Assembly: GCA_002840685.1 (NCBI GenBank)
Contig: PHBU01000018.1
Location: 1-64,000, forward strand
Reading direction: 5' to 3'
Length of the DNA: 64,000 bases
DNA from: Chloroflexi bacterium HGW-Chloroflexi-6
GTDB taxonomy: Bacteria > Chloroflexota > Anaerolineae > Anaerolineales > Villigracilaceae
The position numbers and the translations under genes were made by a program. The notes beneath the pieces are model-generated. The model had not been told where the DNA came from. It saw nothing but the letters and a program-made list of their open reading frames with translations, and made no database searches. Below are positions 14,405-46,133 of this stretch, piece after piece. Positions within the stretch are counted from its first letter, which is position 1. Every line of letters starts with the position of its first letter.

Positions 14405-16204
14405 ATGTCCTCATACATGCCGCCACCCTCCACGCTGAATCCCGGTGCTACCGTCTGGGATTATTTGCGTGATTCTGGCGGCACGTCGCAAGAATTGAGC
14501 GTACCCCAGCAAGACCAGGAAGTGGAAAGATTCTGTGCCATGTATGGGTTTGTGCGGGTGCGATCTTTTTGCGATGTTGCCCGTTCTGGTACATCTGTTG
14601 TTGGCCGCGACTCTTTTCTCGATATGATTGAGAAGATTCTTGACCCTAAAACGCGCCCGCATGTCATTCTTGTCTGGAATTACTCCCGTATTGCAAGAGA
14701 TTTAACTGATGCTTCATATTACAAAGGATTGATCCGGCGCTATGGCATCCAAATCCATTCCCTGACCGACCCGGTGACGGAGGGCGAGTACAAACCCTTG
14801 GTCGAGATGATGATCGACTTCTCAAACCAGGAGAAGAGCCGCCAGACTAGCAGGGATGTTAAGCGCGCATTGCACAACATGGCCAATCAGGGCTTTTCAT
14901 CAGGCGGAACGCCACCGCGCTGTTATCTTGCCGAGAAGGTTGAGATTGGTTTAAAAAGAGATGGGACGCCACGTATTGTCTCACGCTGGATTCCTGATCC
15001 TGATTTGTGGGAACTCGGTCAATTGGCCTGGAAACTACGCGCTGAAGGAAAATCCTATCTTTATATCCAGAAAGCTACTGACGGCCGTTTATATAAATCT
15101 GTCGGCTCATGGAACAGCTTTTTCGCCAACGAGAGCTATTTGGGGATTGGCAAGTGCGGCGATGAGAGAATCCCTGACCATCACCCTGCCTTGATCGACA
15201 GGCCAACCTGGGATGCTGTACAACACCTGCGCCGGTCGCATCCCAAGAATGATCCGCAAGATTCTTCGGCCCACCCCCGTCGAATTGCTGCTCCATCCTT
15301 GTTGGTCGGGATGGTATTCTGCGAAAATTGTGGCGCTGCTATGTCTCACCAGACCTATAACAAATCTACCTGGCGTTGTTATATCTGTGGAAAAAAGTGC
15401 CGGGAAGGTTGGAAGTCTTGCTCTGCACAAATGGTTAATGCGCGCAATGCTGAGATTGTTGTTTTAGACAGTGTGCTGAATCGCATTTTGACCCCAGAAT
15501 ATTTCTCCGACCTGCTCATTAAGGTTCAAGAATGCTTTGCTAACGATGCTGATTTGGAGCGTCAAATCAAAGACTCGCATACAGCTTTATCAAAAGTGGA
15601 GCGTGTGATAAACAATTTACTCGATGTCTTGGAGACCCAGGGGGGCGCATCGATCTCCTTGCGTCTGAAGGAACGTGAAACCGACAAAGCTGCCTTACAA
15701 GCTAAATTGCTGATGCTGGAAAATCAACTGGCCGCCAGCACGCTCAAGATTTCTCCTGAAGCCATCGAAGTAGTTTTGTCTGACTGGCGTGACCGTCTGC
15801 TTCATGATCTGCAAGTTCAGGATATTCAGGCGGCCCGTGCCATCCTGCAACAATTGATTGTCCGTATCGATATGGGCTACGATCATATCCGCATTTTTTA
15901 TCGTTACCCTTTGTCTGGCGGCGCGCCGATGCTTGAAGGTGATTTTATTGACCAGCGATTATCCGACCTACCGGGAGCGTGTAACCAATCTATCTTTGAG
16001 ATTGCCCCACACCTGGCCCCAGTTGCCAGACCAGCCAAGCCACCCAAGCCAGTCAATCCGCGTGATGCAGAGATTTATCGCCTGCATACCGAAGAAAAGC
16101 GGACCATCTCTTCGTTGGCGGAGGAGTTTGGGTTGGTGGAAAAAAGCATTTGGGGGATTTGTACGAGGATGCGGAAGATGACAGGAACGGTTATGCCCGG
16201 ATAA
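14405..16204 (+). CDS. Large serine recombinase
   Basis: A 599-residue serine integrase. The N-terminal resolvase domain has the catalytic Ser24 in YLRDSGGTSQ, plus VILVWNYSRIARD and QEKSRQTS. A recombinase domain follows (GGTPPRCYL ... ALIDRPTWDAVQ). Next is a zinc ribbon with two CxxC-type pairs (CENCG; CYICGKKC) and then a coiled coil (about residues 380-450). The C terminus carries a probable helix-turn-helix (RTISSLAEEFGL). It would integrate and excise the element at att sites. It is the last gene, as in many serine-integrase elements. A repeat with tRNA-like features begins 107 bp after its stop. Confidence 0.95.
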   Translation: MSSYMPPPSTLNPGATVWDYLRDSGGTSQELSVPQQDQEVERFCAMYGFVRVRSFCDVARSGTSVVGRDSFLDMIEKILDPKTRPHVILVWNYSRIARDLTDASYYKGLIRRYGIQIHSLTDPVTEGEYKPLVEMMIDFSNQEKSRQTSRDVKRALHNMANQGFSSGGTPPRCYLAEKVEIGLKRDGTPRIVSRWIPDPDLWELGQLAWKLRAEGKSYLYIQKATDGRLYKSVGSWNSFFANESYLGIGKCGDERIPDHHPALIDRPTWDAVQHLRRSHPKNDPQDSSAHPRRIAAPSLLVGMVFCENCGAAMSHQTYNKSTWRCYICGKKCREGWKSCSAQMVNARNAEIVVLDSVLNRILTPEYFSDLLIKVQECFANDADLERQIKDSHTALSKVERVINNLLDVLETQGGASISLRLKERETDKAALQAKLLMLENQLAASTLKISPEAIEVVLSDWRDRLLHDLQVQDIQAARAILQQLIVRIDMGYDHIRIFYRYPLSGGAPMLEGDFIDQRLSDLPGACNQSIFEIAPHLAPVARPAKPPKPVNPRDAEIYRLHTEEKRTISSLAEEFGLVEKSIWGICTRMRKMTGTVMPG

Positions 16205-16310
16205 ATTCTGTTGAAGTAATCGAATTTAATATGTTGGGTAAGCTGGCTTGTATTTGAATTGACAATTAATCTAAACAGTACCGTCTTGCAAACTATCTCA
16301 AGAAAACCAA

Positions 16311-16451
16311 TACATAATTGATCCTTCTCTCCTGATGGGACAAGAGAACTGCCGTCAAAGGCGGTTTTTGGTTTAAAGCCATACAATCGCATCTGAGGGA
16401 TGCAAGGCTAAAACCAGGATTCGAGTTCCCGGGCCCATCATCAATTATGTA
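16311..16451 (+). repeat. Dispersed structured repeat, copy A
   Basis: The outer arms TACATAATTGAT (16311-16322) and ATCAATTATGTA (16440-16451) are perfectly inverted. Inside are GATGGG/CCCATC, a CCGTC/GGCGG hairpin followed by TTTTT, GCATC/GATGC, and a T-arm-like GGATTCGAGTTCC. The core CGGTTTTTGGTTTAAAGCC recurs at 20345-20470 and 29605-29770. The rest of 16205-16594 shows nothing I can name. Confidence 0.75.
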
Positions 16452-19969: not shown

Positions 19970-19998
19970 TTTTCACATGCTCTTGATAAAGCGATAAT
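19970..19998 (+). promoter_or_regulatory. Predicted sigma-70-like promoter for a non-coding transcript
   Basis: TTTTCA (19970-19975) and GATAAT (19993-19998) are separated by 17 bp. No credible coding frame follows before the terminator at 20252. Confidence 0.5.
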
Positions 19999-20004
19999 AT
20001 GAGT

Positions 20005-20288
20005 GTGGTTGAGAAAAAATAACCCACAATCATCATCGTGGGGTATCGCCCGGGTAGTAAGGGGGTGCGCAGGGGGGAATTGCCGGGTAGGGAAGGAGGG
20101 CCTTCCTTAAATGCTGTAAGCCGGGGCGCCAGCTTCAGGGGATCTGCCGCCTGGGAAGACCCTCCTCCCCAATAATTCTTATGGAAACTCGCCTGGTAAT
20201 TTTCTTGACATTCTAACTGAAATGAACGAAAATAACTTTGCCGTTGATCAGAATGCCCCCCTCATTCTGGTGAGCGGCATTTATTTTT
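20005..20288 (+). ncRNA. Candidate structured non-coding RNA with G-quadruplex motif
   Basis: A GC-rich, purine-rich stretch has its own promoter and a terminator hairpin (AATGCC...CTCA/TGAG...GGCATT then TATTTTTG, 20252-20288). It contains a CCCAC/GTGGG hairpin, six G-tracts of 3-6 within 20052-20100 whose loops are 2-7 nt, and a long stem pairing GGAGGGCCTTCC (20097-20108) with GGAAGACCCTCC (20155-20166). I could not match it to 6S, SRP, tmRNA, RNase P or a known riboswitch. Confidence 0.5.
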
Positions 20289-20344
20289 GTTGGTGAAAGC
20301 ATACCAAAAAATGACTGCTGATTGGTAGGTAATCTGAAAAGAAT

Positions 20345-20470
20345 TCTCTGACAGACCCTCTCAAGAATCCAATACATAATTGATACGTATTCCCGTGGGG
20401 GCACAAGAAAACCGCCGTAACAGGCGGTTTTTGGTTTAAAGCCATCCAATCCCATCAAGGACACTCAGGG
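20345..20470 (+). repeat. Dispersed structured repeat, copy B
   Basis: It shares with copy A CCAATACATAATTGAT, and with copies A and C the hairpin ACCGCC...GGCGGTTTTTGG and the following GTTTAAAGCC. It also shares ACGTATTCCCGT with copy C. Orientation is the same as A and C. The hairpin with TTTTT could act as a terminator before the kdp promoter. Confidence 0.75.
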
Positions 20471-20503: not shown

Positions 20504-20570
20504 TCTTGAACATTTCTTGAACATTCAGCGCATTCTCTTGAATAAAAGCTGAGACGCATCTCTCTATAAT
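20504..20570 (+). promoter_or_regulatory. kdp promoter with triple direct-repeat operator
   Basis: TCTTGAACATT occurs twice in perfect tandem (20504-20514, 20515-20525) and a third time as TCTTGAATAAA (20536-20546). TATAAT at 20565-20570 has no matching -35. Direct repeats with ~11-bp phasing upstream of a poor -35 are typical of OmpR-family activators, so KdpE (encoded downstream) is the likely binder. Confidence 0.7.
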
Positions 20571-20589
20571 TCTGGCTTAGGAGAATCCT

Positions 20590-20685
20590 ATGCCAGAATT
20601 ATTTGTTTTTATCACCATAACCATCTTTGCACTTGTCTCCTGGGGCTTGTTCAGCCTTTGCCAGAATCTTATGGAGACGAAATGA
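20590..20685 (+). CDS. 31-residue membrane peptide heading the kdp operon
   Basis: AGGAG precedes the ATG. The peptide is one hydrophobic helix (MPELFVFITITIFALVSWGL) and a short polar tail. Its TGA overlaps the kdpF start (ATGA), so translation is coupled. It is a second KdpF-like small subunit by position and form; homology cannot be judged at this length. Confidence 0.65.
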   Translation: MPELFVFITITIFALVSWGLFSLCQNLMETK

Positions 20686-29604: not shown

Positions 29605-29770
29605 CACCCTCTCAAGAATCCAATACAATATTGAGACGTATTCCCGTGCCCGCAGGGTGCCTTACCGTTGGGGCACAAGAGAACCGCCGTAACAGGCGGT
29701 TTTTGGTTTAAAGCTCTCTTATCTTGTCGATGGAAGCAAGGCTCAAACTGAAGTTCGAAATCCCGGGGGA
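29605..29770 (+). repeat. Dispersed structured repeat, copy C
   Basis: CTCTCAAGAATCCAATAC, ACGTATTCCCGT, CACAAGA-AACCGCC and GGCGGTTTTTGGTTTAAAGC match copies A and B. A 24-bp extra piece (CCCGCAGGGTGCC...) lies between. The downstream end again contains a T-loop-like GTTCGAAATCCCGGG. The ACCGCC/GGCGGT hairpin plus TTTTT may terminate the kdp transcript. Confidence 0.75.
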
Positions 29771-45891: not shown

Positions 45892-46006
45892 TGTGTTCTC
45901 CTTAAATTAAAAAACAAGTCTTTTTCCATCCGACATTTCCCTTCGCAGTGTGCGAAGCCTCACGACTCAAAACACCCATTGGAAAGGTATTTCTTGTGTG
46001 ATCTTC

Positions 46007-46113
46007 GACGCCTACGAGGTTAGCTGTCGGGCTGGAGCAGAAGACTTGCTCTATAACGCAGTTGCGCTATTTCGCCCCGGAAGTGGGTTCCCCGATCAAT
46101 AGATTCGGCGTTC
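46007..46113 (-). ncRNA. Cyclic-di-AMP riboswitch (ydaO-yuaA class)
   Basis: On the minus strand the conserved blocks appear in order: ACGCCGAATC, CGGGGAACCCA, GGGGCGAA, a variable hairpin, then CAGCCCGACAGCTAACCTCG and GGCGTC. P1 pairs ACGCC (46111-46107) with GGCGT (46012-46008). This matches the ydaO-yuaA aptamer, where bound c-di-AMP usually switches expression off. A CTTCGCA/TGCGAAG hairpin and T-rich stretch between aptamer and ATG may form the expression platform. Confidence 0.93.
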
Positions 46114-46133
46114 AACAATCAAATTACTCTATC

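Follow-up and report, generated by a model that had tools for sequence, protein, structure and literature searches.

A promoter and a terminator-like hairpin lie beside presumed kdp genes

The window analyzed here is a stretch of 64,000 nt from Chloroflexi bacterium HGW-Chloroflexi-6 (GTDB lineage Bacteria; Chloroflexota; Anaerolineae; Anaerolineales; Villigracilaceae), corresponding to positions 1 to 64,000 of the forward strand of PHBU01000018.1 (assembly GCA_002840685.1). On its plus strand, between a gene for a response regulator (Response_reg above the Pfam cut-off, GerE domain slightly under it) and genes that we take to be kdp, lies a hairpin at positions 20239 to 20279. Its stem pairs 20239-20255 with 20263-20279, giving 17 pairs including one mismatch, and closes a 7-nt loop, CCCCCCT (20256-20262), which is near-invariant in pattern searches and loop surveys. 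A T-rich tail, TTTATTTTTGTT, follows at 20280-20291 and is the predicted end of transcription, judging from its sequence and from the tails of other copies. Folded alone, the hairpin has a z score of -6.0 (none of 200 shuffles matches its stability), and it scores 56.3 bits with R1, the covariance model of the family described below. Near the loop, an A-U pair replaces the usual G-C (GAATG...CATTC), which is a double change.

Directly 5' of the hairpin is a promoter sequence, TTGACA-17-GAAAAT (20205-20233), matching at 10/12 positions. Its -35 box (TTGACA, 20205-20210) and -10 box (GAAAAT, 20228-20233, ending 5 nt ahead of the stem) stand in the register shared by other copies. A preliminary description of this DNA had overlooked this promoter and reported another, with boxes 17 bp apart; a promoter-like site of that kind is indeed present at 19970-19998 and matches at 9/12 positions. 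The -10 box of the window copy is weak (4/6), which counts against the explanation that we favor below. Because the promoter lies directly ahead of it, the hairpin appears to be a transcription unit of its own. Transcription is predicted to start at 20239 or an adjacent nucleotide, at the base of the stem, so that the predicted RNA would consist of the hairpin and a U-tail only, about 47 to 50 nt, i.e., nothing beyond an intrinsic terminator. The strong hairpin and T-rich tail at 20239-20291 had previously been described as the terminator of a long RNA; the structure is there, but a long RNA ending in it is not supported, and the hairpin is itself a conserved unit of ~49 nt.

Several other features were found in the window. 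A 15-nt inverted repeat (AATTCTGGCTTAGGA / TCCTATGCCAGAATT) at 20568-20600, before or at the presumed start of the kdp operon, is perhaps an operator or a leader hairpin. The c-di-AMP riboswitch (RF00379, 72.5 bits) at 45994-46120 on the minus strand is noteworthy since the window seems to contain kdp genes. By blastn, a dispersed repeat of ~110 to 127 bp, with copies 77 to 78% alike and a terminator-like hairpin (AAAACCGCC...GGCGGTTTT), occupies intergenic-looking DNA at 20330-20456, 16267-16393, and 29606-29714. Near one of these copies is a 599-amino-acid open reading frame (14405-16204, plus strand) that presumably encodes a large serine recombinase.

The G-rich region upstream of the hairpin is at chance level

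The preliminary description proposed that this locus encodes a ~280-nt structured RNA containing a G-quadruplex, with a possible response to K+ in view of the neighboring kdp genes. The six G-tracts on which it was based exist (at 20052, 20061, 20072, 20085, 20090, and 20098), and a long possible stem is present within the proposed region. A 286-nt fold gives a z score of -2.75, a value that we discount because it includes the terminal hairpin, which alone accounts for a z score of -6.0. Once this last hairpin is removed, the upstream part (20005-20204) is no more stable than expected by chance (z = -0.27; 75 of 200 shuffles are equally stable or more so). The G-tract region itself (20052-20100, plus strand) lies outside the conserved unit, and its fold and G4 content are at chance level: the window holds one G4-motif cluster, and 30 first-order Markov sequences hold 1.7 on average. 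Searching 60 relatives by blastn gave no convincing homologue of the G-rich part; among the matches listed, 15 loci showed chance-like scatter in other genes or rRNA. The same search matched the hairpin to homologous hairpins at three loci (L005, L006, and L031), in which the stem differs and the loop is identical.

An RNA G-quadruplex element should show G4 motifs beyond chance as well as conservation, and neither was found here. On the z score of -0.27 and the chance-level G4 count, we reject a long structured RNA with a G-quadruplex, and we regard the K+-responsive form of this proposal as exceedingly improbable. With no excess of G4 motifs, no excess fold stability, no convincing homologue, and variable neighbors at the other copies, the suggested link between K+ and a quadruplex is not supported. 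An Rfam search of the window region returned no family reaching its threshold, which agrees with the earlier view that the locus lies outside the common RNA classes. An undescribed structured RNA is thus upheld to that extent, but not with the length and structure first claimed for it. Hairpins of other copies (18 loci) likewise gave no Rfam family match.

The hairpin belongs to a covarying RNA family with a near-fixed loop

We measured covariation in 59 hairpins out of 81 distinct sites, kept at ≥15/16 pairs and with viral loci excluded. In this set, 98.0% of stem cells pair, two-sided changes occur in 13 of 17 pairs, and the covariation score is 0.825, compared with 0.189 for shuffled and 0.07 to 0.17 for slid partners. 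The ≥15/16-pair filter favors pairing, and the unfiltered figures are therefore important: all 16 positions are paired at 54 of the 81 sites, and among 138 host sites taken with no stem filter, the stems contain 223 G-T cells versus 21 A-C cells. This excess of G-T over A-C points to an RNA made from this strand. It is not what DNA pairing would favor, and the promoter and T-tail keep a fixed register; both observations argue against a DNA element whose extruded hairpin serves as a protein or recombination site. Although a position beside phage packaging genes (see below) and at several chromosomal locations would suit such an element, we consider it very improbable.

The loop was fixed in the first searches and in the model, and part of its constancy therefore follows from the method. 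In surveys less subject to this bias, CCCCCCU makes up 99 of 100 C-rich 7-nt loops closed by UG/CA among the loci collected at that stage. Model matches outside the first pattern revealed a second apex, GGGUG...CACCC, with the loop unchanged. Among 39 regions chosen by model score, weak matches included, at least 29 contain TGCCCCCCTCA; in a few, the number of Cs is five or seven or the last base differs. Several of the weakest model matches (e.g., L341, L343, and L346) are not member-like. The hairpin is thus a covarying RNA family in which the stem sequence is free and the 7-nt loop CCCCCCU is near-fixed.

The features flanking the hairpin recur as well. A promoter matching at ≥9/12 positions precedes 60 of 98 host copies (those kept at ≥13/16 stem pairs) and 41 of 44 viral copies, compared with about 6.5% of shuffles, the figure for the host copies being 6.6%. 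In 57 of these 60 host copies, the -10 box ends 4 to 6 nt before the stem. Four or more Ts occur within 8 nt after the stem in 88/98 host copies and 29/44 viral copies.

The predicted RNA is core, and often multicopy, in its bacterial order

The exact pattern RATGCCCCCCTCATY has 68 sites in 40 of the 152 genomes of the source's family, and its reversed control has none. R1 matches 142 of the 152 genomes, with up to 10 matches per genome. Of 400 genomes drawn evenly across the phylum, 37 have R1 matches; 35 of these belong to the source's order, and the two outside it are weak (E = 1e-4 and 1e-3). A stricter pattern, run against 84,980 species, found 61 stretches, 60 of them Chloroflexota-named and one in a metagenome-assembled genome labeled Bacteroidetes, which may be mis-binned. 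Carriers include the cultured Anaerolinea thermolimosa IMO-1 and Leptolinea sp. HRD-7. The source genome has four copies (on C24, C26, C28, and C39), of which the C39 copy is that of the window. On these searches, we regard the RNA as core, and often multicopy, in its order.

Of 26 GGGUG-type loci, 14 have a tRNA-Arg (CCU) gene a short distance upstream, and genes that we take to be ftsK-like and recN-like stand beside several; this setting looks like an ancestral core location. The tRNA gene is ~80 to 120 nt upstream of the copy at L191, L192, L195, L197, L200 to L202, L204, L205, L207, L209 to L211, and L214. Elsewhere, the neighbors of host copies are variable. The window copy and the C26 copy are both near related response regulators; we set this tie aside, since the 17-locus neighbor cluster behind it was joined by single linkage and mixes kinases with regulators.

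Of 94 intergenic host copies, 60 face a convergent gene as their nearest downstream neighbor, so at most sites the RNA cannot act as a leader, and variable, mostly convergent downstream genes rule out a cis-leader of kdp as an account of the family. The same count bears on a simpler reading, in which the unit is a promoter-proximal insulating or attenuating terminator and the RNA itself is functionless. Each unit is a promoter running straight into a terminator, and a strong stem with a T-tail is what a terminator has; a terminator does not need a fixed loop, however, and because most copies face a convergent gene, these have nothing to attenuate. We consider this reading improbable.

Viral copies frequently carry a LexA-type box in the promoter

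IMG/VR contains 8 and 49 stretches for the two apices, several of them without the stem. A TerL-like open reading frame is an upstream neighbor in 14 of the 57 viral loci, and among example neighbors we confirmed the small and large terminase subunits, a portal protein, and an M23 peptidase. Four viral loci (L236, L257, L260, and L263) carry tandem hairpins; the second unit has the apex CTTG-CCCCCCT-CAAG and is preceded by a promoter-like sequence of its own. Directly before the RNA gene are small phage open reading frames (~70 to 80 codons) of two families with 11 members each, e.g., at L249, L279, L280, and L284; one of these small reading frames matches phrog_14596, whose annotation names no function.

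Among 44 structured viral copies, 23 have GAACN4GTTC in the promoter with at most one mismatch, 4 of them exactly. The box occurs in only 1 of 98 host copies, and in shuffles at a rate of 0.6%. In 21 of the 23, the box occupies one and the same position, between the promoter boxes; it is absent from the other 21 of the 44 viral copies. We read GAACN4GTTC as the LexA box of the order because it lies upstream of lexA at 12 of 12 lexA loci. The viral copies that have the box are therefore candidate members of the LexA (SOS) regulon, with a predicted LexA site.

Copies beside packaging genes, and in tandem at four viral loci, might suggest a component of a defense, counter-defense, or toxin-antitoxin system, with the phage copies acting as decoys that divert a host factor which would otherwise sense or use the host RNA. 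The near-universal presence of this RNA within the family and its variable neighbors would be unusual for such systems, and no toxin-like neighbor is recurrent in the neighbor clusters examined. We judge a role of this kind improbable.

Of the 301 genomes examined from the order, 17 carry a TerL homologue, the best at 72% identity in one genome of the source's family (G027). None of the TerL loci fetched from these 17 genomes contains a CCCCCCU-loop hairpin, and R1 applied to longer stretches from four of the TerL genomes gave short-terminator scores only (≤19.7 bits). The source genome itself has a TerL homologue of 32% identity (G000:C17:20933-22447, L388), likely in a prophage, with no hairpin nearby. 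Among 50,697 records of isolated phages, no match covers more than 35% of the 86-base query. The TerL loci of the 17 genomes thus give no sign that the RNA-bearing phages are integrated there; the link of these phages to a host is indirect, and they presumably infect members of the source's order.

Candidate targets and a probable mode of action

A C-rich loop could pair with G-tracts in mRNAs. In 41 genomes, AGGGGGG-N4-9-ATG occurs at 841 sites, versus 613 in the reversed control, a weak signal; the source genome has 11 such sites versus 6. No recurrent target gene was seen among the sites with a G-tract before ATG.

The accessible text on B11/6C of mycobacteria describes a C-rich loop of a Rho-independent terminator that pairs with G-tracts adjacent to the ribosome-binding site, thereby lowering translation (PMC12395582), and that on B11 in M. 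abscessus reports that either of its C-rich loops is sufficient (PMC10470900). We prefer pairing with G-tracts because the C-rich terminator loop of B11/6C acts in this way, and by this analogy trans action of the C-loop is the most likely mode. Membership in 6C was considered and rejected, as the RF01066 cut-off is not reached in any of 21 genomes and the source genome has no match, although control genomes are likewise below the cut-off. Even with E values of up to 5 allowed, RF01066 does not match the window region. Like 6C, the RNA has its C-rich loop within an intrinsic terminator (loop CCCCCCT, T-tail in 88 of 98 host copies, as above); two C-rich stem-loops per RNA, another 6C trait, were not found, since only a single hairpin separates promoter from T-tail in the window copy and in the aligned copies, and each unit of the four tandem viral loci has a separate promoter-like sequence. 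6S RNA (RF00013) was also rejected, since its sole match in the source genome lies elsewhere (C32:232313-232490, 68.8 bits).

The loop could instead be recognized by a protein that binds CCCCCCU on a 16- to 17-bp stem, the RNA then serving to titrate or activate this protein; CsrB-type RNAs and 6S RNA are models. A loop that is nearly invariant across the order and in phages, with the UG/CA closing pairs also kept, fits one conserved partner, and the G-tract target signal is weak. A run of Cs is nevertheless a known antisense seed, and we regard a protein-binding decoy or cofactor as a possible but rather unlikely alternative.

DISCUSSION

Our favored explanation is that 20205-20291 of the window is the gene for a stand-alone sRNA of ~47 to 50 nt, comprising a promoter, a start at the stem base, a 16- to 17-bp stem, a CCCCCCU loop, and a U-tail. 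The C-loop would pair in trans with G-tracts (AGGGGGG or shorter) near the ribosome-binding sites of mRNAs and would lower their translation. The stem would stabilize the RNA and terminate transcription, roles for which pairing but not sequence would be selected. Phages would have acquired the gene, many under a LexA-type promoter, such that the RNA may be made upon DNA damage or prophage induction. Taken as a whole, a trans-acting, terminator-only sRNA that is core in its order and has been taken up by phages is the account toward which we cautiously lean. We put forward only tentatively, and with some doubt, the broader proposition that a bare terminator under loop constraint may be an entire trans regulator, captured by phages beside their packaging genes and placed under LexA/SOS control, and that it might take over host riboregulation at induction.

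To our knowledge, the sRNAs of Chloroflexota have been little studied, and a literature search of open-licence PMC papers found no paper on such an RNA in this phylum. A near-minimal sRNA whose loop is fixed throughout the family while its stem covaries freely would allow one to ask how little a regulator needs. That phages reuse it, in many cases behind a LexA-type promoter, offers a testable case of a host sRNA being adopted rather than sponged. R1 permits annotation of the RNA in genomes and phage contigs.

Among known RNAs, the LhrC family of Listeria and the cuckoo/CcsR-type sRNAs of alphaproteobacteria are, in the features considered here, similarly multicopy, with C-rich loop motifs able to pair with Shine-Dalgarno regions. 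They are larger RNAs, with other loop sequences and in other phyla than the hairpin described here. In 6C/B11 of Actinobacteria (RF01066), one of the C-rich loops is likewise inside a Rho-independent terminator (PMC12395582, PMC10470900). Unlike B11, described there as having several stem-loops, two of them C-rich, the Chloroflexota RNA is a single hairpin in which the CCCCCCU loop is fixed and the stem base adjoins the promoter, and it occurs in another phylum. The viral copies are comparable to AgvB and AsxR of enterohemorrhagic Escherichia coli, presented in the accessible text as phage-encoded anti-sRNAs of 51 to 60 nt, at conserved prophage positions, that act on riboregulation by the core genome (PMC4104026); both are small phage-encoded RNAs. 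AgvB is described as a target mimic that inhibits a host sRNA, whereas the viral C-loop copies share the loop of the host RNA and would either reinforce that RNA or vie with it for the same partner.
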